A stretch of 55,441 nucleotides of DNA from Bdellovibrionales bacterium CG10_big_fil_rev_8_21_14_0_10_45_34 (GTDB lineage: Bacteria > Bdellovibrionota > Bdellovibrionia > Bdellovibrionales > 1-14-0-10-45-34): the NCBI GenBank assembly GCA_002778785.1, contig PEZS01000003.1, positions 1 to 55,441 on the forward strand. The letters run 5' to 3'. The notes under the pieces were generated by a model, which saw only the letters and a list, made by a program, of their open reading frames with translations, was not told where the DNA came from and did not search any database. Position numbers and translations under genes: made by a program. Numbering within the stretch: the stretch's first letter is position 1; every line of letters starts with the position of its first letter. This document shows positions 7,601 to 26,879 of the stretch, piece after piece.

Positions 7601-8884
7601 TCAAGATTCTCCTCTGAGTAATATTCGAACTGTCGTACCTTTACTTAGGCTGGAATCTATTTGAAGTGTGCCATTCCAACGTTCAATCGCCTCTTTAGCA
7701 TAGTGAACCCCCAGGCCTGATCCGAATGGTTTATTGTATGAAAACCCCTTCTTCCCGATGTTTTTGAGAATCTCAGTCGGCATTCCGGATCCGTTATCTT
7801 TGATTTCTATAACGATTAGTTTTGAGCCACCTTCTCGATCTTGTTCACCTGAGGTGGACTCTCTAAGATTAACTTGGATCGTGTCCCCCGCTTTGGATGC
7901 CTCCTTAGCGTTATTGCAAATATTAGAAACGACCCTGCTGAAAACAGACTTCTGACAAACTATCTTTCCGCCATCTTTAAGTTCAGATCTAAAATCAATT
8001 TTTATTGCCTCATTTGAGTATTCCAACCTTTTTTCCTCAACCAATGTCTGCAAGAGTTCTCCAACATTATTCTGAGTCAGGGGTTCAATTCGATTTTGAT
8101 AGAGTTCATCCGCTTCTCTCTTTGCTATATTCTGAATATCAACGGCAATATCTTCGATTCTTTGAACAGAGCTATTTACTATCTTCCACAAGTCACGATT
8201 CAAACCGTCGGCCATCTTGAAGACTGATTTAAGTGCGGATATGGGGGATTGAATGTCGTGGGCAACTTGACGAGAAACCTGTCGATATAGCGATTCTCTT
8301 AGCTGAACTTCAGAGGTAAGGCGCTGGCGACCGATGAATTCTCTTTCTCGTAGCCTCTGCTGAATGTTCTTAATGGAATAGGCGATAATAAGTACATATA
8401 ATGTGTGCATGGAATGGTAAACCGCGATTCCCATGGACGAACTTGAAATACTTGTTTTGGCTAACATGTACACTAGTGGCCAATAAATAATGGCAGCGCC
8501 TACGAGAAAGTAAGTCTGCGGCATCGGGAAAAAGATGAGTGCCGCCAACCCTAACGTATGTATGCCGCCAATATAGAGCATAGAAATGTCGTTTGATAAG
8601 ACGATCGTTACTTGGAGGGGTAGGGCCACAACGAAGACCGAGAGAAGCGTGTAGCGGTAAACATTGTAGAGGGGGCGTACGTGATAAGCCGCGAGAGCCA
8701 AGACTGTGACGATGCCAGCTGAGGTTATTCGAAGAACCAGCGTAGTCCATTTTAGCTGTGGAACCATCTGAGAGTCCGCTACCCAAAAAAATAAGGTCAG
8801 CGGAGCTGCCAAATAGAGCAGGATGCTCCTGAGTTTTCCTTTGAACTCGACCTCGAGTTCGCGATCGAAATCTTGACTGTCCAT
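7601..8884 (-). CDS. Six-helix membrane sensor histidine kinase (paralogue A)
   Basis: 427 residues: six N-terminal membrane helices within about 18-172, a short coiled linker, H-box RQVSRQVAHDIQSPISAL with the phosphorylated His at 209, and an ATPase domain with N-box NICNNAKEAS, G1 DNGSGMP and G2 SGLGVHYAKEA. The input is the membrane bundle itself, with no periplasmic domain or receiver. It aligns end to end without visible gaps up to the H-box with the kinase at 14890, where the His is also residue 209. The ATG at 8884 follows TAGGGG. No response regulator is adjacent, so the partner is unknown. Confidence 0.92.
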   Translation of the reverse strand: MDSQDFDRELEVEFKGKLRSILLYLAAPLTLFFWVADSQMVPQLKWTTLVLRITSAGIVTVLALAAYHVRPLYNVYRYTLLSVFVVALPLQVTIVLSNDISMLYIGGIHTLGLAALIFFPMPQTYFLVGAAIIYWPLVYMLAKTSISSSSMGIAVYHSMHTLYVLIIAYSIKNIQQRLREREFIGRQRLTSEVQLRESLYRQVSRQVAHDIQSPISALKSVFKMADGLNRDLWKIVNSSVQRIEDIAVDIQNIAKREADELYQNRIEPLTQNNVGELLQTLVEEKRLEYSNEAIKIDFRSELKDGGKIVCQKSVFSRVVSNICNNAKEASKAGDTIQVNLRESTSGEQDREGGSKLIVIEIKDNGSGMPTEILKNIGKKGFSYNKPFGSGLGVHYAKEAIERWNGTLQIDSSLSKGTTVRILLRGES

Positions 8885-9123: not shown

Positions 9124-11217
9124 ATGGTTAAAGCGCTCGCAACTTTGATTCTGCTCATGTTTACCAACCAGTCGGTTTTGGCCGACGTGTCCAGAGAAAC
9201 TAAGTACATATGTTTGGAATTTGTAGACAGCAACGCTAAATGCGATGTCACCCATCTCGCTAGCAATACTGGTCAAGCGGAGAATGCCGGCGAATGGAAA
9301 GTATTCCATGAAAATTATTCGCTTGGCTACTTTTCAGGAACTGTTTGGCTTGCACTTGAATTTGACTCCTCGATCGAGAGCGGGGAAAAAGTACTTACGG
9401 TTAACTACCCTCTGATTGATTACCTAGATTTAACCATATTCGAAGACGGAGTGGAGATTTTGGCCTCACAGACTGGGGCACTCCGACCATTGAGCTCGAG
9501 GCCAATTCAAAGTACTGTGTTTGCATTCCCCGTCAACCTCAAGCCCGATAAACATTATCGAATGGTGCTCAAGGCTCAGAGTCAAACGGCAATGAGTTTT
9601 CCGATTGATCTAAATAGCAAGCGAGAATTCCTTGTTGCTGAAAAGGCGCGAGACTTCAAGTTCGGAGCATATTCGGGAATAATTTTGTTTATCGTAATAG
9701 TTAATTTCCTTCTCTATTTCGTATTCTTTGAAAAAAGTTTGATTGTTTATTGTTTGGCGGTGTTTTCTTACCATGGCTTCGCAGTTCTGTCGTTGTTTGG
9801 TTACCCAACTGTTTATCTCTGGCCAGATAACTTCTGGCTTATCGAAAGACAAGTAGCTCTTTCGGAGTGTTTGGCGGTTGCGCTCTCGCTAATGTTTGCT
9901 CTCAAGTATCTTAGACTCAAGCGACACTCCGAATTCTTGCATAAGGTATTTCTAACTTGTATTGGCACAAGTATTTTCTTGGCGGTTTTGGCAATATGGA
10001 TTCCTGGGCAAATTACTTTGATGCTCGCTGCGGGTATTTCGGTTCTAGCGGCTTCACTGAGTATTTGGACAGGGTCCGTTCTCGCCATAAAACGGAAAAG
10101 TCGAATGGGACTATTTTATTTAGTGGGCTGGACAGTTCTGTGTTTAACTACAATGCTCTTCCTAGCTCAGTACTTGGGATTAGTAGCTGAGAACATCGTC
10201 ACCGTAAATGCCATTTTTGTTGGGGGTGTGTTTGAAGCATCTATTCTGGCGTATGGCCTAGGGGATCGCTTTAGACGAATAATTACTGAAAAAATAGCAT
10301 CTCAGCAGAATGCCTTAACCCGGCTACGCGCAGCTAGAGCACGCCAAGAAGAGATTCTAAACCAGACCAAAAAATTCGTACCGTCAGGTCTCGTAGAGCT
10401 TCTTGGGAAAAGCGATATAACAAGTATTAATCTGGGTTCTGTCGAAAGCCTAGAAAGGACCGTATTGTTTCTAGATATTAGGAATTTTACTTCTGTCGCC
10501 GAACTCATGAAACCAACGGAACTTTATCAGTTCCTCCTACACTATCTTGCTAAGATTTCGCCCATCGTTGATAAATATCACGGTTTTATCGACAAGTTTA
10601 TAGGTGATGGGATTTTAGCAATTTTTGAGACACCTGAAGACTGCATGTCTTGTGCTCTTGATATTTTGAAGGGCCTAGAAGAACTTAATAGATCCGGTCT
10701 GATTAATGGTCTGGCAAAAGTTCAGGTGGGTTTTGGAATACATACTGGAGTAGTCGCTGCTGGCGTAATTGGGAATCCGATGCGTCTTGAGGCCACAGTC
10801 GTCGGCGACACAGTCAACGTAGCTGCACGCCTGGAGTCGACAACTAAGGAATATGGTTGTGAAATTCTAATTAGCAAGGAAACCTACCTTCGTGCGCCAG
10901 AGAGTCTTCTTGACCTTATAAGATTTGTTGATGTTATTCAGCTGAAAGGGAAGAGTAAGACCACTGAAATCTATCAGCTTATTGATCCTGACCATGTGAA
11001 GGATGTCGTCCCGAACATTACTTTAAACAAGTTGATCAGCCTTATAAAGGACGAAAAAGTTTCCGCAGCAAAACAACTGTGCCAAGAACTTGAAATTGCA
11101 TATCCCAAAGATAGACTAATCCAAAATTACAGGACAAAAATTCATTTGTTAAACTTTAAATCGACAACTCCGGACGCTCTGTCAGGGGTGCCCGGGAAGA
11201 AGCGGATGACTGGCTAA
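9124..11217 (+). CDS. 7TMR-DISM membrane adenylate cyclase (class III)
   Basis: 697 residues. Signal peptide to about 21; a periplasmic beta-sandwich like 7TMR-DISM extracellular domains (about 25-165); seven membrane helices (about 180-385); a short coiled coil; then a class III cyclase domain. Metal-binding aspartates are D451 (FLDIRNFTS) and D495 (FIGDGILAIF); Lys in FIDKF and Asp in VVGDTVNVAARLE fit adenine recognition, so ATP to cAMP is likely. The N and R of NVAARLE are the expected transition-state residues. It should make cAMP in response to a periplasmic, probably carbohydrate-like ligand. No clear ribosome site precedes the ATG. Its last 62 bases overlap the converging AlkB-like gene. 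Confidence 0.92.
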   Translation: MVKALATLILLMFTNQSVLADVSRETKYICLEFVDSNAKCDVTHLASNTGQAENAGEWKVFHENYSLGYFSGTVWLALEFDSSIESGEKVLTVNYPLIDYLDLTIFEDGVEILASQTGALRPLSSRPIQSTVFAFPVNLKPDKHYRMVLKAQSQTAMSFPIDLNSKREFLVAEKARDFKFGAYSGIILFIVIVNFLLYFVFFEKSLIVYCLAVFSYHGFAVLSLFGYPTVYLWPDNFWLIERQVALSECLAVALSLMFALKYLRLKRHSEFLHKVFLTCIGTSIFLAVLAIWIPGQITLMLAAGISVLAASLSIWTGSVLAIKRKSRMGLFYLVGWTVLCLTTMLFLAQYLGLVAENIVTVNAIFVGGVFEASILAYGLGDRFRRIITEKIASQQNALTRLRAARARQEEILNQTKKFVPSGLVELLGKSDITSINLGSVESLERTVLFLDIRNFTSVAELMKPTELYQFLLHYLAKISPIVDKYHGFIDKFIGDGILAIFETPEDCMSCALDILKGLEELNRSGLINGLAKVQVGFGIHTGVVAAGVIGNPMRLEATVVGDTVNVAARLESTTKEYGCEILISKETYLRAPESLLDLIRFVDVIQLKGKSKTTEIYQLIDPDHVKDVVPNITLNKLISLIKDEKVSAAKQLCQELEIAYPKDRLIQNYRTKIHLLNFKSTTPDALSGVPGKKRMTG

Positions 11218-12301
11218 GCGGCGGCGAGATTCTTTGTTGCTCTTCTATCTGTTTCAAAAATTTATCTAGAATTGGATGAATAAGGTTATGCCAAAGAACA
11301 GGGATGAAGGTAACTCCGACAAGTGTCGGGTACCCGTAAGGGAGCTTTGGAGCGACATCATTTAGGTGCAGGTTCTGATATCTTTTAGTTGCGGCTTTAT
11401 GATGTTCGGAATGAATTTGCAGGTTGAAAAGCAACCAGTTTGAAAGCCTGTTGCCGGAGTCCCACGAGTGATTCAGCTTCATAGATTCATAACGTGAACC
11501 CTGCTTTTTTCTAAGTAATCCATAATGTTCTATATAGCTTACGGTCTCTAACAATATAACTGCAATTACAGCCTGGACGACAAAAACTATTAAGGCGGTT
11601 AACCCGCCAAAAATAACAAGTGAGAGAATAAATAAAAAAGTGATCAGCCATAAGGTCACAAAATTATTCATGCAAATTCTTCGAAAAAAGCCCTCATATT
11701 GTGTAACCCTTCTTCTTTCATGTTCATAAGCGAACCTCAAACAGCTCGGAAGGGTTCTGCGCAGATAGGAATAAATGCTTTCGTCTCGCCAACCAGTGCT
11801 GTTGTCGGCTTTCGTACAAGCGAGCGCATGGTGGCCATATATATGGGAGATTTCAAAGTGTGGGTAGCCAGTTATCACCAGCCCAATTCGCCCGAACCAT
11901 TTTTCAACGATGCCTACTTTGTGTACCAACTCATGACTGGCATTGATTACTAAAGAACCAAGAGTGCCCAAAGATAGACTTAACCCGAGTAGTTCATATA
12001 AGTTCTTCGTATTGACTGCAGATACTGTTAAAAGGATCGCCAGAATATGGGCAAGCACAATTGTAGCGGGCGCCGCTGCAAATACGAAATCTGATAATCT
12101 AGAGTTTCGACTTTTACGTGCAGAAGGGAAATCAAATTCCCCGAAAAGTGGGTCGACTATTGGAATCACAATGAAAATAGTGGCAAAGGCTGCGAAGCTC
12201 CATAAACCACCGAATTTTAAACCCAGATAGTAAGATGAATAGAGTAAAAGTGGCAGATAGTAAAAAGGTATCGTTCGCCATGAACTTTCATTCGAACTCA
12301 T
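11156..12301 (-). CDS. AlkB-like membrane diiron hydroxylase/desaturase (paralogue 1)
   Basis: 381 residues with hydrophobic helices and the histidine boxes of integral-membrane diiron enzymes: HELVHK (123-128), HIYGHH (153-158), YIEHYG (H259) and HSEHH (297-301). This set is that of alkane 1-monooxygenase relatives, although the usual Glu of EHxxGHH is Ser here, so fatty-acid or aldehyde substrates are also possible. The ATG at 12301 lies inside the end of the upstream oxidoreductase gene (14-base overlap), pointing to translational coupling; longer in-frame readings would overlap that gene further. The C-terminus is polar and Ser-rich and overlaps the converging cyclase gene by 62 bases. 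Inner membrane. Confidence 0.85.
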   Translation of the reverse strand: MSSNESSWRTIPFYYLPLLLYSSYYLGLKFGGLWSFAAFATIFIVIPIVDPLFGEFDFPSARKSRNSRLSDFVFAAAPATIVLAHILAILLTVSAVNTKNLYELLGLSLSLGTLGSLVINASHELVHKVGIVEKWFGRIGLVITGYPHFEISHIYGHHALACTKADNSTGWRDESIYSYLRRTLPSCLRFAYEHERRRVTQYEGFFRRICMNNFVTLWLITFLFILSLVIFGGLTALIVFVVQAVIAVILLETVSYIEHYGLLRKKQGSRYESMKLNHSWDSGNRLSNWLLFNLQIHSEHHKAATKRYQNLHLNDVAPKLPYGYPTLVGVTFIPVLWHNLIHPILDKFLKQIEEQQRISPPLSQSSASSRAPLTERPELSI

Positions 12302-13301
12302 ACAGAAGGTCCTTGATGACGGGCACTGCGTTTTCGGCCGTTGAAGTTCCAATTGCGCAACACGGGATCGCGCCCTGATACCCGAGGGGCAAATTTGGAA
12401 ATACGCCACCTTTTACGCCAGAAATATGATAGGTGGGAATGCCTTTTGCCTTTAACTTTTTTAGTGTTTTAATGGATGGTTCTGGAAAGGTTTCGTTTAC
12501 TAGAACAATTCCTTCCCACATTTTATCAACATATGTGTCGATTGCCCCACTTCTCGATACATCAACAATTAGGCAAGGTTTGCCCTTCAACCGAGAAGGC
12601 AGATTGCCAAACCCAGGCCCCACATCAATCGTTATTACTTCACTGTAGTTTTCACTTAGTTTTCTAACCAAACTTTTACCAATTCGGCCAAGACCACCCA
12701 CAACCATGACGGTGGGAGTGAAGTCCAAAAAGTGTTTTCTAACCACCAGTCGTATCGATTCGACAACTATTTGGGCAACATTTTCCTGAGAGCTATCCCG
12801 AAAAGATGCATCTATTTTTTTGAAGACACTAGGTAAAATTCCAGAATAGGTAACCGACTTTGTGCCTATAAGTCGGGCTAAAAAATCAATCCGACTTTTC
12901 AATAAAAGCAAGTTGGTACGGTTGGCTGGATCTAAGAACTCTGCTTCAGTTACCGGTGACGCAAATATTAGACCTTGAACCCCAGCGCTCGAAAAAATCG
13001 CGATTGGCGTCGGCCACCACCGCAGCCATTTTCTGCTCCATTTAAAACAATATCTATCCGAATATCTGTCGCTTCCCGCGTAACAAAAAAAGCAAATACT
13101 CCAAGCGGGGCGAACTCTATTCACTACTCCTAGAACTACGCCAAGAAAATGTATTCGAACGAGCACGTTGAGGGAAAGAAGTAGTAACTTGAATGACGAA
13201 AGCCTGACTGCCAACTTTCCAAAGTGGAGCTTTCTAAGCTGCCGGCTATCACTGTGCAGCTGCAATAAAAAGCTATGAAATCGACTTAGGAGCTGGTCCA
13301 T
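12288..13301 (-). CDS. Putative acyl-ACP-reductase-like NAD(P)-dependent oxidoreductase
   Basis: Up to 337 residues. The middle has a Rossmann loop VMVVGGLGRIGKSLVRKL (about 200-217) preceded by a helical region ending SGILPSVF and followed by IVLVNETFPEPS and GAIPCCAIGTSTAEN. The order and spacing recall cyanobacterial long-chain acyl-ACP reductase (GGFTSI, VVGATGDIG, a late Cys-Ala segment), which makes fatty aldehydes; this is an eye comparison only. The first 59 residues are Leu-rich with no ribosome site at the ATG; a GTG at 13124 just after AGGAG is an alternative start giving 278 residues. Its end overlaps the AlkB-like gene by 14 bases. Shikimate-dehydrogenase-like or saccharopine-like functions are alternatives. 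Confidence 0.5.
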   Translation of the reverse strand: MDQLLSRFHSFLLQLHSDSRQLRKLHFGKLAVRLSSFKLLLLSLNVLVRIHFLGVVLGVVNRVRPAWSICFFCYAGSDRYSDRYCFKWSRKWLRWWPTPIAIFSSAGVQGLIFASPVTEAEFLDPANRTNLLLLKSRIDFLARLIGTKSVTYSGILPSVFKKIDASFRDSSQENVAQIVVESIRLVVRKHFLDFTPTVMVVGGLGRIGKSLVRKLSENYSEVITIDVGPGFGNLPSRLKGKPCLIVDVSRSGAIDTYVDKMWEGIVLVNETFPEPSIKTLKKLKAKGIPTYHISGVKGGVFPNLPLGYQGAIPCCAIGTSTAENAVPVIKDLLYEFE

Positions 13302-13679
13302 ATGAAATCTCTATTCAACAATCCTGCCAAAGAGGGGCAGAGGCGAAATACACTTCGGCTAAGTGTTTTGATCTCAAAATCAGCCTATCTACATGCCGCC
13401 CGGACTCACAGACCACCAGGGTGGGCCAATTAAGTAAGATTAATTGACAAATAACAGACAGAGTCAAAAAATTTTAGGGTTTACTATAAAAAAGTAAGGC
13501 TCCTTTCAAAGTGCCGAAGTAATTGACAAGGTTCTTCAAAAATTGTCTCAGAGCTACTTCCTCCACGCCCGATCCGAATTTGTTTGCAATCGACATTATG
13601 TTTATGTCTAGCTGAAGGGGTGAAGAGTGCGAATTTTATCAGGCCTAAAACAGTTAAGCTAACTGACCACGAGGTCGAG
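13302..13679. other. Intergenic region between divergent reductase-like and coaBC genes
   Basis: 378 bases with no gene I can support, though an in-frame extension of coaBC to a TTG at 13584 or GTG at 13620 is open. It must carry promoters for both directions. Two TTGACA hexamers occur (near 13444 and 13523), but neither has a convincing -10 box at 16-18 bases. No riboswitch or strong stem-loop is evident by eye. Confidence 0.5.
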
Positions 13680-14889: not shown

Positions 14890-16167
14890 TTGAGTGATCC
14901 TGTATTTAATCTTGAAATAGAACTAGAGATCAAGCGTAGGATCCGACTAACCCTTCTTTTTTTAGGGGCGCCTCTGACCCTTGTTTTTTGGATTGCCGAC
15001 AGGCAGTACATTCCCGAGTTTCAGTGGGAAGCTCTGCTCTTTCGCTTTCTAGCTGCTTCGATGCTTATCTTAATCGCATTTAACCTCCGCCAATTCAAAT
15101 CGCTCAAAAAAGCGTATGGCTTAGTGTTGATTTCGGTAATTGTTGTAACCTTGCCGGTTCAAATTTTAATCTTGCTGCAAGATGACGTGGCTACTCCCTA
15201 TATTAGCGGTCTACATATGATTTCAATTGCAGCTCTCACATTCTACCCAATGCCTAATCCCTATTTTATTGCAACTTGTCTCATTATATATATGCCCTAT
15301 TTCGTGGTTTTGGCGATGAAACCGATACAATCGAATTCAATCGGCATTGTTGTCGTCTACCTGATGAACTCCCTGTGCTTTTTGACAATTGCCTATGTTT
15401 TAAAGGTCATTCAGGAAAAAATGCGCGAAAAGGAATTTCTCGCCAGACAAAAACTCGAGTCTGAGATAAAGCTGCGCGAGACTCTTTATCGACAAGTTTC
15501 GAGACAGGTCGTTCATGACATTCGATCGCCGATCACCGCCTTTAAGATGATTGCAGAAAGCATAAAGAGCGAAAACCCAGATAGAGGCGTATTGCTAGCC
15601 CGAGCTGTTGATAGGATAGAACATATTACTGGGGATATACAAAACATAGCTAAGCGAGAGGCTGAGGAGCTCTACAGAAATGATATTGAACCCGTAGATA
15701 AAATTCGCATACTTGATTGCCTTCTCACAATAGCAAAAGAAAAAGAAAGCGAGTATTCAATCGACAACCTTAAGGTAGAGGTGACGTGTTCTGTTAATAG
15801 GAACACACGGGCATACGCCCAAAAATCAGTTTTCGAGCGAATAATTTCAAACCTCCTTAACAATTCCAAAGAAGCCTCTAAAGATGGTTCTAAAGTTTAC
15901 ATTGAACTGCGAGAGGCGACGCAGGATGAACTTAAAGAACTGGAGGGCTCAAATTATATAGCTATAACTATAAGCGACGAAGGCCGCGGTATTCCCGAAG
16001 AAATCCTCGAGAAACTTGGTAAAGAAGGGTATTCGTACAATAAAAGTGGTGGCTCTGGTCTGGGCCTTTACCATGCAAAAACCGCTTTAAAGCGATGGGG
16101 CGGAGAACTTCGTATCAAATCAGAACTTCAACAAGGGACAAAAATAACACTCTTTTTAAGAGTCTAG
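14890..16167 (+). CDS. Six-helix membrane sensor histidine kinase (paralogue B)
   Basis: 425 residues with the same plan as the kinase ending at 7601: six membrane helices (about 18-172), H-box RQVSRQVVHDIRSPITAF with His209, N-box NLLNNSKEAS, G1 DEGRGIP, and G2 SGLGLYHAKTA. Long stretches match paralogue A, including the start of helix 1 (APLTLVFWIAD versus APLTLFFWVAD) and the helix-4/5 turn (FYPMPNPYF versus FFPMPQTYF). It starts at a TTG after GGGATGAG and is 19 bases downstream of coaBC, so it may share its transcript. It lacks a receiver and an adjacent response regulator. The signal is unknown and probably sensed within the membrane. Confidence 0.92.
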   Translation: MSDPVFNLEIELEIKRRIRLTLLFLGAPLTLVFWIADRQYIPEFQWEALLFRFLAASMLILIAFNLRQFKSLKKAYGLVLISVIVVTLPVQILILLQDDVATPYISGLHMISIAALTFYPMPNPYFIATCLIIYMPYFVVLAMKPIQSNSIGIVVVYLMNSLCFLTIAYVLKVIQEKMREKEFLARQKLESEIKLRETLYRQVSRQVVHDIRSPITAFKMIAESIKSENPDRGVLLARAVDRIEHITGDIQNIAKREAEELYRNDIEPVDKIRILDCLLTIAKEKESEYSIDNLKVEVTCSVNRNTRAYAQKSVFERIISNLLNNSKEASKDGSKVYIELREATQDELKELEGSNYIAITISDEGRGIPEEILEKLGKEGYSYNKSGGSGLGLYHAKTALKRWGGELRIKSELQQGTKITLFLRV

Positions 16168-18698: not shown

Positions 18699-20420
18699 TT
18701 AGGACCTGGCACCTGTGAAGAATTGGAAGTAATCGGGGTCGCGGTAATCGAACACCTTTTTATTTTTGCGGTCTAACAAGTAATAGTTGTCACTGTAATA
18801 AATGAGCAAAAGCCCTTCGCTCTCATACTCTTCAATCGGGGTGCCTCTTTCGATGAGGCGGCTATAGAACTTCTCTTTGACCCGGATGGGTCGCCCACGA
18901 ATATTCTCAAGCGGAATAAACTCCTTCCATAATGCTGAAATATCGATTCGGCCGACCATCGACCGTCTTGAGAAATATCGTAGCGGAGGATTCTCTATTT
19001 TTTTGAGTTTACGGAGCTCAGCGTGAACAGCAGTGTGGAGGCTATAATTTGTCTTTCTTATTTTGTCGTACCAGCGGCTGAGTTCGGGGCAAAAAATTTC
19101 CTTAACGGCGCGAAAAGTTGGGATGGTAAATGAAAACTCATCTTCACGAAACATAACATTCAGGTGGCTTGGATTATCTATAGCGTTCTGAGCGCTCACT
19201 GAAAGTAAATTGTAGAGGCCTTGCCGCTTTGTCAGTGTGTTGAAGTCCGAAATGCTGAGTCTTGCGTAGGCGAGCCTGATGATATCCCGGCGATCAATTT
19301 CATTGTAATCCGTCGGATAACCCACTTCGTTCAGTAAGATCTGATCGACCGTGAAAGCCGCTTGGAGAGCGACTGGTTTCGACTGCCAAAACTTGTAAGT
19401 CTGCGCTTGTTTGGCGAAGACAAAATTGAAAAGAGCATTTCGTGCATTAGCACGTGTCTTTTGTAACTCTGTGATGTCTTCAGCTGAAGCTTTACGAGTC
19501 TTCTTTAAGAACTCTATTTGTCCGCCGACCTTACTCTCCCACAGTCTAAATCTTTCAGACCACTGCTCGGCATTGATCTTTAACAGATCTTCAACAACAC
19601 CAAAAACCCAAATGAGATCGCGCTTTAAGGCCGTATCGATGGGAGGCCGCTTTGAGCGTAAAAGCTTTAGATAAATTGTGTCGATAGAAGTTCTGTAATA
19701 GCGATCAGAATCGCCAGACTCATTTTCTGGGGCACCGTCCTCCCAAATCTTTCTCATAATGAAGAACTTCTTGTGTTGTCCGTCTGCTTTGGTTTTTAGC
19801 TCTTCGTACTTGTGGCGGTTCGCCAAGTGATCAACAGGAAAACTAAAGTTACCTAAAAACTTTAAAGACTCGATCCATCTGATGAGTTGAAAGCGCAAAG
19901 ACTCCCACTCAGAGTCCTTGGGATTTAAAAAGTAATTCGCAACCTTCTTTCTTAATTGCTCGGTTTGTTCTTTTTGCGCGGGCCACCGCGAGGCGCTTCT
20001 TTCTACGGTCATCATTCTTTTGTCTATCCAGTTCTTCTTTTCGACAAGAAGATCTTCAATCTCTTCAAGGTCATCATTTGAAACATCTGGATCTGGTAAG
20101 AACGGCAGTGGCTCTTCGCGCTGATAGTCTAAGTACAAAGTTTCAAACTCTTGCGCGGTTGATTTAGGGCAAGTGGTTTGTCTCATTTTAATCAGGTGTT
20201 TCTTGTAGTTTGAAAAGGTTTCAAGTCTTCTGAACGAAACAATGGGGCTAGTTTTCTCCGGTTTATTCGTGTCGCCGGTGCTACTGGCTTTGCTTTTTGT
20301 AGGACTCTTTTTGGTGACCGGGCGGGCAGTACGTTTTTTGCTTGGTGCGGCGGCAATCGGATCACCCGTGGATAAGACGCAAACAAAAAGGGCAGTTAAA
20401 ATCAAGTTTAGAAACGGCAT
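18699..20420 (-). CDS. Hypothetical secreted protein, last gene of a five-gene operon
   Basis: 573 residues, not recognised. A signal peptide (MPFLNLILTALFVCVLSTGDPIAAA) is followed by a Lys/Thr/Ser-rich low-complexity linker (about 27-60) and a long, mostly helical, basic and aromatic-rich body. Only two Cys are present in the mature part, which could form a disulfide. The C-terminus is beta-like and rich in Tyr and Asp (LLLIYYSDNYYLLDRK...FDYRDPDYFQF). It starts one base after the coiled-coil gene, and the whole series upstream overlaps or abuts, so it belongs to the metallophosphoesterase-DOMON-NamZ operon. An envelope role is the only inference from context. Confidence 0.75.
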   Translation of the reverse strand: MPFLNLILTALFVCVLSTGDPIAAAPSKKRTARPVTKKSPTKSKASSTGDTNKPEKTSPIVSFRRLETFSNYKKHLIKMRQTTCPKSTAQEFETLYLDYQREEPLPFLPDPDVSNDDLEEIEDLLVEKKNWIDKRMMTVERSASRWPAQKEQTEQLRKKVANYFLNPKDSEWESLRFQLIRWIESLKFLGNFSFPVDHLANRHKYEELKTKADGQHKKFFIMRKIWEDGAPENESGDSDRYYRTSIDTIYLKLLRSKRPPIDTALKRDLIWVFGVVEDLLKINAEQWSERFRLWESKVGGQIEFLKKTRKASAEDITELQKTRANARNALFNFVFAKQAQTYKFWQSKPVALQAAFTVDQILLNEVGYPTDYNEIDRRDIIRLAYARLSISDFNTLTKRQGLYNLLSVSAQNAIDNPSHLNVMFREDEFSFTIPTFRAVKEIFCPELSRWYDKIRKTNYSLHTAVHAELRKLKKIENPPLRYFSRRSMVGRIDISALWKEFIPLENIRGRPIRVKEKFYSRLIERGTPIEEYESEGLLLIYYSDNYYLLDRKNKKVFDYRDPDYFQFFTGARS

Positions 20421-20421
20421 T

Positions 20422-20964
20422 CTATCGCTTGTAAAAATTTAAAGTGCTCAGCAAGAAACGTATACTCTGCTGTAGCTGAATATGACGGGTGCGCATCCTG
20501 TCATGCATTGTTCGCAGCTGATCATAGTCGTCGTGATACTCGAAATGATCGCCATTGATGATCTCGACCATAGTTGGATCGGCTTCTGCTTGTTCGATAT
20601 CATCTTTATGCTGGTCGAGCTGCACGTGTAGGTCTTCTATACTGTCAAGATGTGCTTTGAGATCTTTGGCATGTTGCTCGAATGATTCGATAATGTTAGC
20701 AAGCTCTGTAAACCAAGCATCTTTTTGATCGGACCACTGAAGGGCTTCAGCCGTAAGGCTATCAAGTTTCTTTCTCAGAGAGTTTGAAAAGTGCAAGTAA
20801 TCGTCTGTGCGAGACTTATTAACAATTTGTTTTTGAGCGTTGATGGCTTCTGTTGTTTCAGAGGGTTTTTGCAAAATGGGTTCGATTGCCTTCTGGCTTT
20901 GCGCAAACTCCAAGACCTTGCGGCGCTCTCTTTCTTCACGACTTTCTAAAAGTAAAACGTCCAT
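20422..20964 (-). CDS. Hypothetical coiled-coil protein
   Basis: 180 residues from the ATG at 20964 (GAGG two bases upstream, a tight spacing); a GTG at 21027 would add 21 residues inside the end of namZ. The protein is highly charged and helical with heptad-like stretches (around 40-130 and 150-175, e.g. LDSIEDLHVQLDQHKDDIEQAE), and no signal peptide or membrane segment. It is probably a cytoplasmic coiled-coil or scaffold-type protein. It sits 14 bases downstream of namZ and one base upstream of the secreted hypothetical gene. No family recognised. Confidence 0.65.
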   Translation of the reverse strand: MDVLLLESREERERRKVLEFAQSQKAIEPILQKPSETTEAINAQKQIVNKSRTDDYLHFSNSLRKKLDSLTAEALQWSDQKDAWFTELANIIESFEQHAKDLKAHLDSIEDLHVQLDQHKDDIEQAEADPTMVEIINGDHFEYHDDYDQLRTMHDRMRTRHIQLQQSIRFLLSTLNFYKR

Positions 20965-20978
20965 GTCCTCTATGATAC

Positions 20979-22190
20979 TCAATCTTGGTCTGGATACAAA
21001 AGAAACTCTTTTCGCTGGCTGAGCCACTCAGTTTCATCCTTCACCAAAAGCGGTTCAAGATCTGAGGGGCTTGATGAGCGATTATCCACCCATTCTCTTA
21101 GCCATGTACCTGCTGTGATGACATCAATAGCTAACTTATCAGACACATATTCGTACTGGAAATTGCGCCAAAGTTCATAATCCGGATAGACTTCTCTGAG
21201 CGTTTTAAGAAATAAGGCAACAAGGCGAAAAGGACGAAAGTCGAGATGTTTGTAATTGGATCCGGTTGCATGAATCTGAAGCCCGCTGCAAATCGAATCG
21301 ACATGTTTGTAAAAAGATGGCTGAAAATAAGTGGTTCGAACCCGACATCCAGATGTCCAGTTAGCATTCTCGAGCATTTTCTTTACGATGATTTCGCCAT
21401 CAATGTTGGGCGCACCAATCACTTCTAAAGGAACTGTCGTACCTCGCCCTTCGCTCAATGTTGTGCCCTCGATCATCACGGTACCAGCAAAACATCGAGC
21501 CATATTAAGAGATGCTGCGTTGGGGCTTGGGTTTACCCAGGTCAGCGCTTGCGGCCAACCGAAGCCGGGGCCAGTGTTCGGATCATATTCGGTCATCGGA
21601 ATGACTGTAAGGTCACAAGAAAGTTGAAACTGTTTCTTAAAATACAAAGCCAATTCACCAATAGTTAGACCGTGCCTAATAGGGATTGGAGCGCAGCCGA
21701 CAAAGCTTTCAAAATTTCTATCCAAAAAACGACCTTCAACGGGGCGTCCCGCCGGATTAGGCCGGTCACACACCACAACTCGTTTGCCGTTGTCGGAGGC
21801 GACTTTCATGCACTCTAACAAAGTGGTGATATAAGTATAAATCCGGCACCCGACATCTTGAAGGTCCACCAAAAATCCGTCGATATTCTGAATCATTTCT
21901 TTCGTTGGAGTTCGAGTCTCACCGTAAAGGCTCCAAATGGGAATTCCCCACTTAGAGTTTCTCTCATCCGGGGTTTCAATCATATTGTATTGCTTTTCAC
22001 CCTTCATTCCATGCTGAGGGCCAAAAGCAGTAGTAACTTGCAGCTGCTTTTTTTCTATTAAAACGTCCAGGCTGTGCCGGATGTCAGACGTTACAGAGGC
22101 AGGATGGCCTATAAATCCCCATCGAAGCCCATTAAGCGATTCCAAAGTGTTTGAGTCGTTGATTAGACGGTCTATTCCTAATTGAAACAA
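20979..22190 (-). CDS. namZ: NamZ-type exo-beta-N-acetylmuramidase (DUF1343)
   Basis: 403 residues matching the DUF1343/YbbC family, whose characterised member NamZ removes N-acetylmuramic acid from the non-reducing end of peptidoglycan fragments. Hallmarks: GLRWGFIGHPASV, FGPQHGMKGEKQ, WSLYGETRTPT, GFLVDLQDVGCRIYTYITT, VCDRPNPAG, LTIGELALYF, and TLSEGRGTTVPLEVIGAP. Length is typical of the mature enzyme. No signal peptide precedes the domain, unlike secreted relatives, so it may act on imported muropeptides in the cytoplasm. The TTG start lies after AAGGAG and overlaps the DOMON-like gene by 13 bases. Confidence 0.9.
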   Translation of the reverse strand: MFQLGIDRLINDSNTLESLNGLRWGFIGHPASVTSDIRHSLDVLIEKKQLQVTTAFGPQHGMKGEKQYNMIETPDERNSKWGIPIWSLYGETRTPTKEMIQNIDGFLVDLQDVGCRIYTYITTLLECMKVASDNGKRVVVCDRPNPAGRPVEGRFLDRNFESFVGCAPIPIRHGLTIGELALYFKKQFQLSCDLTVIPMTEYDPNTGPGFGWPQALTWVNPSPNAASLNMARCFAGTVMIEGTTLSEGRGTTVPLEVIGAPNIDGEIIVKKMLENANWTSGCRVRTTYFQPSFYKHVDSICSGLQIHATGSNYKHLDFRPFRLVALFLKTLREVYPDYELWRNFQYEYVSDKLAIDVITAGTWLREWVDNRSSSPSDLEPLLVKDETEWLSQRKEFLLYPDQD

Positions 22191-22708
22191 AACGCATCTC
22201 CTTGAAAATGTATTTTAAAGTTTTTTTTATGATGAAAATCTGGCTTGTCAGCTGGATGGTAACCGGCAAAAAAATGTCTTTTACCGCTGACATCCAGAAG
22301 GATAGTACTGAGAGCTAGGTGTGAGTCATCATAGTTTTTATCGGATTTTTTAAGCAACACATTCAGCTTCAATTCATATAAATTATTTTTCAATTCAATT
22401 TCAGGCGGAGTTACAGACGTTTCTTCTTTCATGTCTTGTCGGTAGTCACTAAAATGAAAACAGTTCCAGCTTTTGTTACAAGAAAAATTGTATTCCCAAT
22501 AGCCCACATCCCCATGTCTACGGACAAAAAGTTCAAATGTTGTATGCTCCCAAAGCTTTAGCTCTCGAAGAGGCGGTTTTTCGAGACTCAACTGCAGGCT
22601 CTGCGTTGGCCCCGTAACTACGTACTGAAAATACAAATGTTCTTCGGTAGCCTGGCATTGCACGGATACGCCAAACGGTGTCGGAAGCTCATAAGGCTTA
22701 AGCTTCAT
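22178..22708 (-). CDS. DOMON-like domain protein
   Basis: 176 residues, a beta-rich protein with LKLWEHTTFELFVRRHGDVGYWEYNFSCNKSWNCFHFSDYR around the middle (about 48-90). This pattern, 'LWE.T.FE.F....YWE.NFS....W..Y.F..YR', is that of a small family of DOMON-like domains; DOMON folds often bind sugars or haem. Here no haem-ligand Met/His pair is obvious, so sugar binding is the more natural guess beside NamZ. No signal peptide. The ATG follows AGAAGG and overlaps the metallophosphoesterase end by 11 bases; its own end overlaps namZ by 13, giving strong coupling. Confidence 0.7.
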   Translation of the reverse strand: MKLKPYELPTPFGVSVQCQATEEHLYFQYVVTGPTQSLQLSLEKPPLRELKLWEHTTFELFVRRHGDVGYWEYNFSCNKSWNCFHFSDYRQDMKEETSVTPPEIELKNNLYELKLNVLLKKSDKNYDDSHLALSTILLDVSGKRHFFAGYHPADKPDFHHKKNFKIHFQGDAFCFN

Positions 22709-23909
22709 ACCTTCTGCTTTCTGAGTGCTTAAGAGTTATATGAGTGATTTCTGCTGGCACCCCGAGGCGATTTGGCGGCCCCCAGTAACCTGTAGCCTGA
22801 TTGACGTAAACCCACATATCTTTGTGTAAGTTAAGCCCTTTAGAGTAAGGGTGAAATAGGCTAATGAACATACTAAAAGGAAAGAACTGACCTGCGTGGG
22901 TATGTCCGGATAGCATAAGATTTGCACCAGCCTCGAAGACGTCGAAACAACTTTTCGGCTGATGAGCTAGAAGTATTTTGAATACATCTTTAGGAGCATT
23001 TCTGAGAGCATCCATAGCACTGCTTTCGTGATCTGGACGAAACCTTTTGCACGAGTAGTCTCTCACACCAGCTATGACCAAGGGGGCGCCATTTACCTCA
23101 ATGACTTGATGTTGATTCTCAAGCACCTGAATGTTGATACTTCGAAAATACTCAAGCCAACTATCAATATTGTAGAAGTACTCGTGATTTCCGGAGCAAT
23201 AGAAAAGACCGTGCTTTGACTTTAAATTCTCTAAAGGAGCGGTATGATACTTTAACGAACTAACGCTGCCGTCTACCATATCACCTGTAATGCAAATAAT
23301 GTCAGCCTCGGTGCTATTGACGGCCTCGACAACTTTCTCAACATATTCTCTCTTTATCGTCGGTCCAACGTGCAAATCGGAGATCTGAAGTATCTTTAAG
23401 CCGTCGTGTTCTGGTGAAACTCGAGGATCAAATATACTTACCATCTTAACGTTAGGACCAGAAACAGCTTCTGCCAGTCCCGCTCCAGTTGCCGAAACCC
23501 CTGCAAGCGCTGCGAACTGGGGGGCCCTCGTAAAAAGATCTCTTCGTGTTTGATCGACGGAGTCCTTCGGACTAAGCAGTTTTTTGCGTGCCCGGAATCG
23601 CTCCAAAGCACTCTTTATAAGGAGAAAAGTTTCGCCAAAAATAAAATAGGCGCCGACAGAGAACCAGAGGCCCATTAAGGAGTAGGCCAACCAAGGAACC
23701 CAAGATAGTTCGGCAAATCCCCTAAATGCATCACTTCGACGAAGTGGTTGGTAACCGATGATTATGGTTAAACCAACGACGAGAAAAGCTCTAAGACTGT
23801 ATCGACCTTGTGGTCCCAATGGGCGCACAAGTCGCCTTTCGATCCAAAGGGTTAATAAAATCATGACTAAACTAATAGTCGCAAAAAATCCGAGTATTTT
23901 AATTCTCAC
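22698..23909 (-). CDS. Membrane-anchored metallophosphoesterase
   Basis: 403 residues. About three membrane helices (5-24, 40-55, 72-95), then a segment TRRDLFTRAPQFAALAG (near 125) resembling a twin-arginine motif before a hydrophobic stretch, then a calcineurin-like catalytic domain: QISDLHVGPT, TGDMVDGS, CSGNHEYF, LAHQPK, and LSGHTHAGQFFP. These ligate two metals. It resembles YkuE/YaeI-type enzymes, some of which act on lipid-linked or cell-wall phosphates; the substrate here is unknown. It begins at a GTG (23909); an ATG 15 codons later lacks a ribosome site. First gene of the NamZ operon, divergent from the AlkB-like gene 43 bases away. Confidence 0.88.
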   Translation of the reverse strand: MRIKILGFFATISLVMILLTLWIERRLVRPLGPQGRYSLRAFLVVGLTIIIGYQPLRRSDAFRGFAELSWVPWLAYSLMGLWFSVGAYFIFGETFLLIKSALERFRARKKLLSPKDSVDQTRRDLFTRAPQFAALAGVSATGAGLAEAVSGPNVKMVSIFDPRVSPEHDGLKILQISDLHVGPTIKREYVEKVVEAVNSTEADIICITGDMVDGSVSSLKYHTAPLENLKSKHGLFYCSGNHEYFYNIDSWLEYFRSINIQVLENQHQVIEVNGAPLVIAGVRDYSCKRFRPDHESSAMDALRNAPKDVFKILLAHQPKSCFDVFEAGANLMLSGHTHAGQFFPFSMFISLFHPYSKGLNLHKDMWVYVNQATGYWGPPNRLGVPAEITHITLKHSESRRYEA

Positions 23910-23952
23910 AAATGCCCCATATTTAGATGGTAAAAAACTTTTTTCTGAAACA

Positions 23953-25032
23953 ATGCTCTGCTACTCTTACAGGGTGTCAACTCTCATTCGATACGGCGGC
24001 TCGCTGCCAGTTATTATTCTTGTTTTGGTAGGAATTGAATTAGGCTTTCAATTCCACCCGGCCTATTGGGCAATTGGAGCTATCGCACTTTTTATTGTAC
24101 ACCCACTTCTTGACACTATTGTTGGCCAAAACAAGAAAAACAACAAGGCAGATCCACGTTTAGCGAAAGCAATATTGTATCTTTATGCCATTTTTCAAAC
24201 GGTTCTTTTGTATCGATCTCTAGCCGCATCGCAAGAGCTGTTTTTGGCTGGGATTTCTACTGCTTGGTACATGATCCTTGCAGTTTCGATCGGAGTTTTA
24301 ACTGGCTCATTCGGAATAACCTTTGCTCATGAGCTTTTTCATGCGCCCGATAAACTTTCGCGAGGTCTTGGCGTTTGGCTCTTACTTTGCGTCTCCTACT
24401 CGCACTTTCGCATAGAGCACGTTTTTGGACACCACAAAGACGCGGCAACTCCACTAGATACTGACACCGCACTTCGGGGGGAGTCTTTTTACCGATTTTT
24501 AGTGAGATCCTTTTTATCTGGTTACACGAATGCATGGCGCATAGAGGCTAAGAGACTCACTAATAAGAGTTCGCTTGCCTTTATTTTTGCAAATCGCTTC
24601 ATCAAATATTCTCTCATGCAGGCGATGATTTACGCTCTTATTTATTATTTTTTTGGTGTTGTGGGACTGCTGTTTTTTGCCGCACAGTCTTTGGTGGCAA
24701 TTGTGCTGTTAGAGGTGGTTAACTATATCGAACACTATGGGCTTCAGCGTAAAAAGCTCGACTCTGGTCGATATGAGTCGTATGGTCCTCAGCACACGTG
24801 GGACAACGCGCATGTAATGACAAACGCCTTGCTGATCAATTTAGGCAAGCATTCTCACCACCATATAAGCCCGTCAAAACATTATCAAGAGTTGGAACTC
24901 CTGGGGGGAGCCTTTATCCACCCGTACGGTTATGCTGTTATGGTCTGGTTTGCTCTGATCCCGCCACTCTGGTTTTCAGTTATGGACTGGCGAATAGATG
25001 CACGTGTTCAAGCCGGGGGCATTCAGGTCTGA
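23953..25032 (+). CDS. AlkB-like alkane/fatty-acid monooxygenase (paralogue 2)
   Basis: 359 residues from the ATG at 23953; earlier in-frame starts would run into the divergent metallophosphoesterase gene. Six or so membrane helices and all four alkane monooxygenase histidine boxes: HELFHA (126), EHVFGHH (155-161), NYIEHYGLQRKK (258-269) and HSHHH (300-304). The second and third boxes match alkane 1-monooxygenase better than the paralogue at 11156. A diiron site would hydroxylate the end of an alkyl chain using rubredoxin or ferredoxin electrons; no rubredoxin gene is seen here. fadD follows 188 bases downstream on the same strand, which fits handling of fatty acids. Confidence 0.85.
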   Translation: MLCYSYRVSTLIRYGGSLPVIILVLVGIELGFQFHPAYWAIGAIALFIVHPLLDTIVGQNKKNNKADPRLAKAILYLYAIFQTVLLYRSLAASQELFLAGISTAWYMILAVSIGVLTGSFGITFAHELFHAPDKLSRGLGVWLLLCVSYSHFRIEHVFGHHKDAATPLDTDTALRGESFYRFLVRSFLSGYTNAWRIEAKRLTNKSSLAFIFANRFIKYSLMQAMIYALIYYFFGVVGLLFFAAQSLVAIVLLEVVNYIEHYGLQRKKLDSGRYESYGPQHTWDNAHVMTNALLINLGKHSHHHISPSKHYQELELLGGAFIHPYGYAVMVWFALIPPLWFSVMDWRIDARVQAGGIQV

Positions 25033-25220: not shown

Positions 25221-26879
25221 ATGGAAAAGATCTGGCTGAAAAACTACCCTAAAAACGTAGCTCCAGAAATCAACATTAATGAGTTTCAGTCAATCAATGA
25301 CGTGTTTTCAGAAGCGTGCAAGAAGTACGGCCGTCGGGGCGCCTATTCCAACATGGGAAAAACCATTTCGTACAACGACCTTGACGATTTGACGAATCAT
25401 TTGGCGGCTTACTTTCAAAATCAACTAGGGCTAAAAAAGGGCGACAGGGTTGCGATTCAACTTCCAAACATATTGCAATTTCCCATTACGCTTTTCGCAG
25501 CACAAAAGGCAGGCTTGGTCGTAGTGAACACTAACCCACTCTACACAGTGCGAGAGATGGAACATCAGTTTGTGGATGCCGGAGTCAAATGTGTGGTGAT
25601 ATTGGCAAACTTTGCTCACAATCTTGAGAAAGTGCTTCCAAAAACTAAGATTGAATCGGTGATTGTCACAGAGCTTGGCGATATGTTGCCACAACCCAAG
25701 CGGACTCTGGTTAACTTTGTTGTAAAGTACGTTAAAAAGATGGTTCCCAATTTTAGTTTGGGATCTAGTACCACCTTTCTTGAGGCTATAGAAAAGGGCA
25801 AAGGACAGCGGCTTGAGCCGGTGGATGTTCGGCATGACGACTATGCATTTTTGCAATACACAGGGGGCACAACTGGTGTGGCAAAGGGCGCCGCTCTCAC
25901 ACAAAAAAACATTTTAGCGAATATGCTTCAGATCTCAGCATGGATGGCTCCCAAGCTCAAAGAGGGGCAAGAAATTGCTATGGCACCGCTTCCTCTTTAT
26001 CATGTGTTTTCACTCACCGTGAATTGCTTGAGCTTTATGAAATACGGAGCTCTCAATGTACTTATCACTAATCCAAGAGATATAGCGGCGTTTATTAAGG
26101 AACTAAAAAAATGGAAGTTTTCAGTATTTGTGGGACTCAACACGCTATTCAATGCTTTGTTGAATCATCCCAAGATTAAAGAAGTAGATTTTAGTTCCCT
26201 TCAAATCGGAGTAGCAGGAGGAATGGCGCTTCAAGGGGCCGTCCTCAAGCGATGGGAGGACCATACTAAGTCGAAATTGGTCGAGGGTTATGGCCTTACT
26301 GAGGCGTCACCCGTTGTGTGTTGCAATCCAATCGACGGTAGCGACAGACCGGGTACAATTGGTCTACCTCTACCTTCAACAGAAGTGCGAATTTGTGACG
26401 ACGCCGGCAAAGAGCTTGGTATTGGTGAAGTGGGAGAACTATGGGCTAAAGGGCCTCAAGTTATGAAGGGTTACTGGAATCGCCAAGACGAGACAGACAA
26501 TGTTTTGAATTCTGATGGTTGGCTGCGCACAGGAGATATGGCGACGGTTGACTCCGACGGGTTTTTTAAAATAGTGGACCGCAAGAAAGATATGATTATT
26601 GTATCGGGCTTCAAGGTATTTCCAAACGAAGTAGAAGAGGTCATCGCCATGAACTCAAAAGTTTTGGAAGTCGCAGTGATTGGAGTTGACGACGAGCGTT
26701 CCGGCGAATCCGTAAAGGCGGTCATTGTTAAAAAGCAGCCCAGCCTCACAGAATCAGAAGTAATTGCGTTTTGCCAGGAGAGGCTTACGAACTACAAGGT
26801 ACCAAAGCATATTGAGTTTCGACACGAGCTACCAAAAACAAATGTGGGCAAAATTCTCAGGAGAGCCTTAAGAGAATAG
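25221..26879 (+). CDS. fadD: Long-chain acyl-CoA synthetase
   Basis: 552 residues, an adenylate-forming enzyme. The AMP-binding P-loop YTGGTTGVAKGA begins at 213; further hallmarks are PLPLYHVFSL, VEGYGLTEASPVV, GELWAKGPQVMKGYW, and the FACS-type segment DGWLRTGDMATVDSDGF...DRKKDMIIVSGFKVFPNEVEE; catalytic Lys in NVGKILRR near the C-terminus. It activates free fatty acids to acyl-CoA with ATP at the inner face of the membrane. Length is close to E. coli FadD. ATG preceded by GAGGTG. It is seven bases upstream of ktrB, so the two are likely co-transcribed although functionally unrelated. Confidence 0.95.
   Translation: MEKIWLKNYPKNVAPEININEFQSINDVFSEACKKYGRRGAYSNMGKTISYNDLDDLTNHLAAYFQNQLGLKKGDRVAIQLPNILQFPITLFAAQKAGLVVVNTNPLYTVREMEHQFVDAGVKCVVILANFAHNLEKVLPKTKIESVIVTELGDMLPQPKRTLVNFVVKYVKKMVPNFSLGSSTTFLEAIEKGKGQRLEPVDVRHDDYAFLQYTGGTTGVAKGAALTQKNILANMLQISAWMAPKLKEGQEIAMAPLPLYHVFSLTVNCLSFMKYGALNVLITNPRDIAAFIKELKKWKFSVFVGLNTLFNALLNHPKIKEVDFSSLQIGVAGGMALQGAVLKRWEDHTKSKLVEGYGLTEASPVVCCNPIDGSDRPGTIGLPLPSTEVRICDDAGKELGIGEVGELWAKGPQVMKGYWNRQDETDNVLNSDGWLRTGDMATVDSDGFFKIVDRKKDMIIVSGFKVFPNEVEEVIAMNSKVLEVAVIGVDDERSGESVKAVIVKKQPSLTESEVIAFCQERLTNYKVPKHIEFRHELPKTNVGKILRRALRE

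Follow-up and report, generated by a model that had tools for sequence, protein, structure and literature searches.

The minus strand of a 55,441-nucleotide stretch of contig PEZS01000003.1 (hereafter the window), from the Bdellovibrionales bacterium CG10_big_fil_rev_8_21_14_0_10_45_34 (assembly GCA_002778785.1; 3.06 Mb in 16 contigs), carries two overlapping genes. By its sequence, the downstream product is a very divergent member of the AlkB family with a complete set of diiron ligands. The upstream product is an orphan Rossmann-type protein that is probably membrane-anchored and NAD(P)-binding. We tentatively propose, as a possibility that we stop short of calling probable, that the two genes form a unit for the oxidation of lipid or hydrocarbon chains.

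The reading frames overlap by 14 bases, as had originally been predicted: the stop codon of the upstream gene (TGA) occupies 12288-12290 and the AlkB-like gene starts with the ATG at 12301. A ribosome-binding-like AAGGA lies 7 nt 5' of this ATG, which is the likely start in preference to the GTG at 12409, with which the listed AlkB-like open reading frame begins. An overlap of this size is ordinary by itself, because 5 of the 12 same-strand neighbour pairs checked in the window also overlap, by 4-49 bases (with unrefined starts; a 13th pair, 15.6 kb apart, was omitted from the count). The two genes are probably co-expressed as a real pair and would presumably be translated together.

The AlkB-like protein and its electron donor

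The prediction that the downstream gene encodes a membrane diiron protein of the AlkB type was confirmed. The protein matched PF00487 (1.1e-28) and, over residues 11-351, the AlkB of Fontimonas thermophila (PDB 8F6T; also 8SBB) with an E-value of 2.1e-49, the likeness extending across nearly the whole membrane domain. It also matched 36 plasmid records; among the matches listed, 13 of 15 were annotated as alkane 1-monooxygenase (the other two were unannotated) and the plasmid AlkBs were 30-35% identical to it. Alignment with 8F6T placed all four predicted histidine boxes, including the one with Ser in place of Glu (Table 1). According to the available part of PMC10113152, the iron ligands of 8F6T are His137, 141, 167, 171, 172, 272, 311, 314 and 315 and Glu271. 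All ten (nine His and Glu271) are kept in the window protein, as mapped with an offset of 3, counted by hand, between the chain index and the numbering of the paper. The available part of PMC10110569 gives nine His and a different nearby Glu.

The original prediction had put weight on the Ser, which turned out to be misplaced. The residue sits at Glu166 (8F6T numbering), which is absent from the ligand list in the part of PMC10113152 available. Furthermore, in a comparison of 20 sequences (two from the window and 18 from relatives, L012 being left out), Glu occupied this position in most relatives, L021 likewise had Ser, and L019 had Ala. A tree of 22 sequences, L012 included, gave the window protein the longest terminal branch (2.1 changes per column); its nearest sequence was only 35% identical, and it stood apart from the other Ser-bearing AlkB (L021, genome G017), a placement to be read with the long branch and the open forks of the tree in mind. 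Compared with 8F6T, the window protein differs in its long branch, in the Ser at a non-ligand Glu and in having an overlapping orphan partner gene. On the basis of sequence and ligands, we file it in the AlkB family, not as a proven alkane monooxygenase.

Another difference from 8F6T concerns the electron donor. Rubredoxin usually serves AlkB in this role, and active ferredoxin-fused AlkBs exist (PMC8918992, in the part available). The window protein has no fused rubredoxin, and a search with PF00301 found none in the source genome, nor in any of 25 other AlkB-bearing relatives. In the control, the same search matched 7 of 14 genomes; across the 368 genomes of the phylum that were searched, it matched 27, of which 26 lie outside the class of the source organism. 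All 26 AlkB-bearing genomes, the source included, are therefore without detectable rubredoxin, and their AlkB-like enzymes must either use another donor or catalyse another reaction. The AlkB-like enzymes of this order probably draw electrons from a non-rubredoxin source.

Other AlkB-like genes were seen in the window and in relatives, where the AlkB pattern recovered the protein in 15 of the 17 regions examined. Within the window, a second AlkB-like gene, 12 kb off (23758-25032, plus strand), adjoins a gene for long-chain acyl-coenzyme A (CoA) ligase (25221-26879, plus strand), an arrangement as in alkane assimilation. At two loci of relatives (L077, 3918-15001, in G017; L075 in G026), an AlkB-like gene begins within the fatty-acid-desaturase gene upstream of it, with an overlap of 14 bases, and is followed by cyclopropane-synthase, amine-oxidase-type and polyketide synthase genes (ketosynthase, acyltransferase, carrier). 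This region looks like a lipid or polyketide cluster; the box of the G026 protein is SHILGHH.

The upstream protein and its family

A search of the phylum genomes with the upstream protein found a single relative, in G173 (locus L049/L054; E 1.9e-38, 35% identity across the core), so that the family counts 2 of 368 genomes. The relative is encoded on the 6,339-base contig JABJPQ010000038.1 of the Halobacteriovoraceae metagenome-assembled genome SI075_bin7. A profile built from the two members found no third one in the same genomes; its five other matches (E 4e-5 to 9e-4) lay mainly over the Rossmann part. Two further contig scans yielded only JABJPQ010000038.1, one of them having used two short patterns, which leaves room for members elsewhere. 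No member was found in the phage and viral collections searched. Among plasmids, the window protein gave one weak match only, under a methyltransferase gene, and the relative gave none.

Aligned over its full length, the window protein is 32% identical to this relative in the frame of the open reading frame, N terminus included, and this frame scored best for coding in 16 of 18 scoring windows along 13400-12250. Of the two exceptions, one started at 13100 and the other at 13400, the latter lying mostly ahead of the ATG at 13301. The upstream gene is therefore intact. We considered the possibility that the gene is decaying or carries a frameshift, so that its apparent N terminus would be read in the wrong frame, since other frames are protein-like around 13000-13100 and the scoring window at 13100 favours one of them. 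Yet the relative aligns in frame across precisely that stretch, which refutes a frameshift of the first ~100 codons and makes this explanation extremely improbable.

Along the protein, a predicted N-terminal membrane segment is followed by a middle region and by the C-terminal NAD(P)-binding domain. The corresponding hydrophobic segment of the relative has a Kyte-Doolittle value of 1.93. The motifs TYSGILPS, WEGxxxVNETxPEPS and GxIPCCA are nearly or fully invariant between the two members. The predicted Rossmann loop VVGGLGRIG is indeed present, with ILGGKGNVG as its counterpart in the relative; such a loop is common to Rossmann enzymes generally. Pfam and NCBIfam scans gave no family above cut-off for either protein. 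An extended short-chain dehydrogenase or epimerase was rejected as a candidate, as these need an N-terminal Rossmann domain and the loop here is at residue 200 of 337, with ~130 residues after it.

The upstream protein had also been likened to acyl-acyl carrier protein (acyl-ACP) reductases, with flanking segments in the same order. This order was not borne out specifically. The reductase profile matched the single window protein at the nucleotide loop only (23 columns, rank 19 of 490 sequences). The two-member profile gave a local alignment with the reductase that covered the loop and ~90 preceding residues in the same order (P 8.5e-5), but an epimerase control set scored higher at the loop (P 9.8e-8), this set being biased upwards by having been taken from earlier matches of the same query. 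A search of the source genome with TIGR04058, the acyl-ACP reductase model, was without match at E 0.1. In a ranking by hidden Markov model, the window protein (E 0.063) came directly behind 11 true members and one other protein, which, as with the phmmer and hhalign comparisons, does not set it apart from Rossmann proteins of other kinds.

Relatives within the order do possess proteins of the reductase type. At loci L039-L048, proteins of ~730 residues have a C-terminal half that is an acyl-ACP-reductase/PigE-like domain. A profile of seven of them (7 of 10 loci, three near-duplicates being omitted) matched, among PDB sequences, PigE (5e-31), cyanobacterial acyl-ACP reductase (5e-12) and the TAD of carmabin synthesis (1e-6). 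Because this one Bdellovibrio-type profile matches all three, we take PigE, whose thioester reductase is N-terminal, acyl-ACP reductase and TAD to form one group by sequence, to which the ~730-residue proteins belong. The window protein differs from the PigE-like proteins in constituting a separate family: phmmer with the reductase-like proteins of relatives gave it a best score of 1.7 bits. Both acyl-ACP reductase and PigE have, downstream of the loop, a Cys that carries the acyl group or corresponds to the one that does (PMC7089970, PMC8341465, in the parts available), and Cys294 of the former lies after the Rossmann domain (PMC7089970). The invariant Cys-Cys of the window protein may be equivalent to Cys294, and, should the protein prove to be a thioester reductase, C314/C315 would be the candidates for its catalytic Cys. 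Cyanobacterial acyl-ACP reductase (6JZQ/6JZU) likewise has its NAD(P) loop in the second half and the Cys downstream; the window protein differs from it by the lack of a profile match, by an extra hydrophobic N-terminal segment and by the distance between loop and Cys.

AlphaFold models of the window protein and of the relative, each made from a two-row alignment, had a mean predicted local distance difference test (pLDDT) score of 50.3 and 52.1, respectively; residues 191-260 of the former reached 70-83. The upstream protein contains a Rossmann domain, as modelled. With the window model, Foldseek placed carmabin TAD at PDB ranks 1-8 (E 5.7e-8 to 1.3e-6), followed by dipicolinate synthase and by amino-acid and shikimate dehydrogenases, the next family having an E-value of 3.8e-5. 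Shikimate dehydrogenase, an option considered from the start, is thus among the fold matches of the window model and ranks below TAD. The longest VIA-align alignments were those with TAD (Z 9.7-10.2, 235-255 residues) and with acyl-ACP reductase 6jzq (Z 9.8, 231 residues, root-mean-square deviation (rmsd) 6.5). Carmabin TAD, a nonribosomal peptide synthetase domain (PDB 9E4S and others), is NAD(H)-bound and its Cys makes a disulfide with dephospho-CoA, as stated in the PDB titles. It differs from the window protein in standing inside a megasynthase, and the two are ~14% identical. No paper on its reaction was found in the literature searched; a domain thought to be related to that of carmabin has been assigned to terminal amide formation (PMC10949194, in the part available).

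Proposed role of the pair

The upstream protein can be read as a thioester enzyme, because its model is nearest to TAD in Foldseek and because Cys-Cys follows the Rossmann domain, as the Cys does in the available description of acyl-ACP reductase. In the unit that we propose, the AlkB-like enzyme would, within the membrane, hydroxylate a fatty or alkyl chain with electrons from a non-rubredoxin donor, ferredoxin being a natural choice. Anchored at the membrane by its N-terminal segment, the upstream protein would bind NAD(P)(H) and act on the chain oxidised by its partner, at the end that bears the aldehyde or acyl thioester, one residue of the invariant Cys-Cys being used as in the acyl-ACP reductase/PigE/carmabin-TAD group. 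It might work in either direction: reducing, so as to furnish an aldehyde, or dehydrogenating with formation of a thioester, so as to take over an aldehyde that arises downstream of AlkB. Its most likely role thus appears to be to handle an aldehyde or acyl-thioester chain end with NAD(P), and the aldehyde chemistry of the original prediction is a fair hypothesis.

Several results weigh against this proposal. The relative ranked 65 of 490 against the reductase profile, the window protein being no nearer to it than other Rossmann proteins are, and hhalign against the seven-member reductase-like profile gave 1.6%. In acyl-ACP reductase, ~20 more residues separate the loop from the Cys. The overall quality of both models is poor, the Cys-Cys region of the window model being below 50 pLDDT, and the template modelling (TM) scores of that model against TAD are only about 0.4. 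In VIA-align, glutamate dehydrogenases and dipicolinate synthase reached Z 10-12 with the window model over 123-214 residues; the rule of the tool treats these values as ties, and by Z the glutamate dehydrogenases draw level or come out ahead. The model of the relative ranked L-tryptophan dehydrogenase and dipicolinate synthase first, with neither TAD nor acyl-ACP reductase among the matches listed. Finally, the only relative of the family has no adjacent AlkB, and its genome, which is 80% complete, yielded no AlkB. It is possible that the upstream protein is an acyl-ACP reductase, as the fold matches of the low-confidence window model would allow. We do not file it as one, because the sequence evidence is non-specific (neither Pfam, NCBIfam nor TIGR04058 matched), the spacing is shorter, the model is unreliable at the Cys and the model of the relative is discordant.

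The two models point in different directions. The window model speaks for the TAD/acyl-ACP reductase group, whereas the relative's model matched an amino-acid-dehydrogenase-like group and other Rossmann proteins, led in Z by dipicolinate synthase subunit A (Z 13.0, rmsd 3.3, 134 residues). It is quite possible, though we regard it as doubtful, that the upstream protein is a generic two-domain NAD(P)-dependent enzyme of the amino-acid-dehydrogenase-like type, kin to shikimate, glutamate and leucine dehydrogenases and dipicolinate synthase A, which would form no thioester intermediate and would oxidise the alcohol made by AlkB or reduce another carbonyl. Both models match this group, and the sequence evidence is compatible with any Rossmann enzyme. 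These matches are mainly limited to the Rossmann domain, however; TAD accounts for the first eight PDB chains of the window model, and such an enzyme would leave the invariant Cys-Cys unexplained.

The pairing of AlkB with the upstream gene is not conserved within the genomes searched: no member of the upstream family occurs in any AlkB-bearing relative. In G173, the neighbours of the gene are an FkbM methyltransferase gene and, on the other side, a divergent gene of the 7TMR-DISM-like type that is truncated by the contig end (BLASTP 3e-7 to the receptor of the window; PF07696 9.8e-5). In the window, a convergent gene (9124-11217, plus strand) for a 7TMR-DISM receptor with a cyclase domain shares 62 bases at its 3' end with that of the AlkB-like gene (stop at 11156). 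It is curious that both family members have a 7TMR-DISM gene nearby, because PF07695 has so few matches: two in the source genome, of which this receptor is one, and one in that of the relative. The proximity of the two genes might be accidental or serve expression only, in which case the AlkB-like enzyme would work alone and the upstream protein would have an unrelated role, perhaps in signalling with the receptor-cyclase. The lack of an adjacent AlkB in the relative, the location of both members within two genes of such a scarce receptor and the frequency of overlapping genes in the window agree with this. We nevertheless find it unlikely: the shared strand, the overlap and the ribosome-binding-like site point to co-expression, and the 7TMR genes lie on differing sides and strands in the two genomes, a coincidence spotted afterwards.

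A more specific version of the proposed unit can be formulated. It is rather improbable that a membrane-tethered, as yet unnamed thioester reductase or dehydrogenase passes a fatty aldehyde directly to, or receives it from, a rubredoxin-independent AlkB. The two would then make up a module for modifying lipids or hydrocarbons, analogous to the pair of acyl-ACP reductase and deformylating oxygenase, with a membrane diiron enzyme in place of the latter. Deformylation, one of the reactions originally envisaged, is unsupported, because the known deformylating partner of acyl-ACP reductase is ferritin-like (PMC7089970, in the part available), unlike the downstream product, which is a membrane protein of the FA_desaturase type.

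Features of the locus and surrounding genes

The features of the two genes are collected in Table 1. Similar histidine-kinase genes (427 and 425 residues) flank the region at 7601-8884 (minus strand) and 14890-16167 (plus strand). A NamZ exo-muramidase gene (20979-22190) is adjoined by open reading frames at 18699-20420, 20422-21027 and 22178-22708 (minus strand), none of which has a significant Pfam match. A PADLOC search for defence systems was without match and gives no link to defence.

Table 1. Positions of the two genes, of their overlap and of the motifs in their products
Feature	Position	Strand	Basis
Orphan Rossmann-type protein, 337 residues	12288..13301	-	In-frame homolog L049/L054, coding score, models
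Predicted membrane segment, residues 39-57	13131..13187	-	Kyte-Doolittle 2.22 over 19 residues
Family motif TYSGILPS, identical in both members	12828..12851	-	Pair alignment
Dinucleotide loop VVGGLGRIG, residues 200-208	12678..12704	-	Sequence; model
Family motif WEGxxxVNETxPEPS	12474..12518	-	Pair alignment
Invariant Cys-Cys (C314/C315) in GxIPCCA	12354..12374	-	Pair alignment
Overlap of both reading frames, 14 bases	12288..12301	-	AAGGA ahead of downstream ATG
AlkB-family membrane diiron protein, 381 residues	11156..12301	-	PF00487, PDB 8F6T, plasmid records
Histidine box HELVHK	11918..11935	-	8F6T alignment
Histidine box SHIYGHH, Ser replacing non-ligand Glu	11828..11848	-	Ligand list of PMC10113152 (part available)
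Box SYIEHYGL with iron-binding Glu-His pair	11516..11539	-	8F6T alignment, PMC10113152 (part available)
Histidine box LQIHSEHH	11399..11422	-	8F6T alignment

In the available parts, PMC9535955 lists enzymes that degrade aliphatic hydrocarbons in Bdellovibrionota_B, and PMC3860262 cites alkB sequences from an oil plume that are attributed to Bdellovibrio. The open literature searched on Bdellovibrio alkB and on operons of acyl-ACP reductase and alkane monooxygenase gave no report of such a pair.

To our knowledge, the lipid chemistry of the relatives of predatory bacteria has been little studied. The occurrence of AlkB in genomes without detectable rubredoxin is a more solid point than the chemistry proposed for the pair. 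If the two proteins do work together, an enzyme that acts on aldehydes or thioesters with NAD(P) would be coupled to AlkB chemistry in these relatives.

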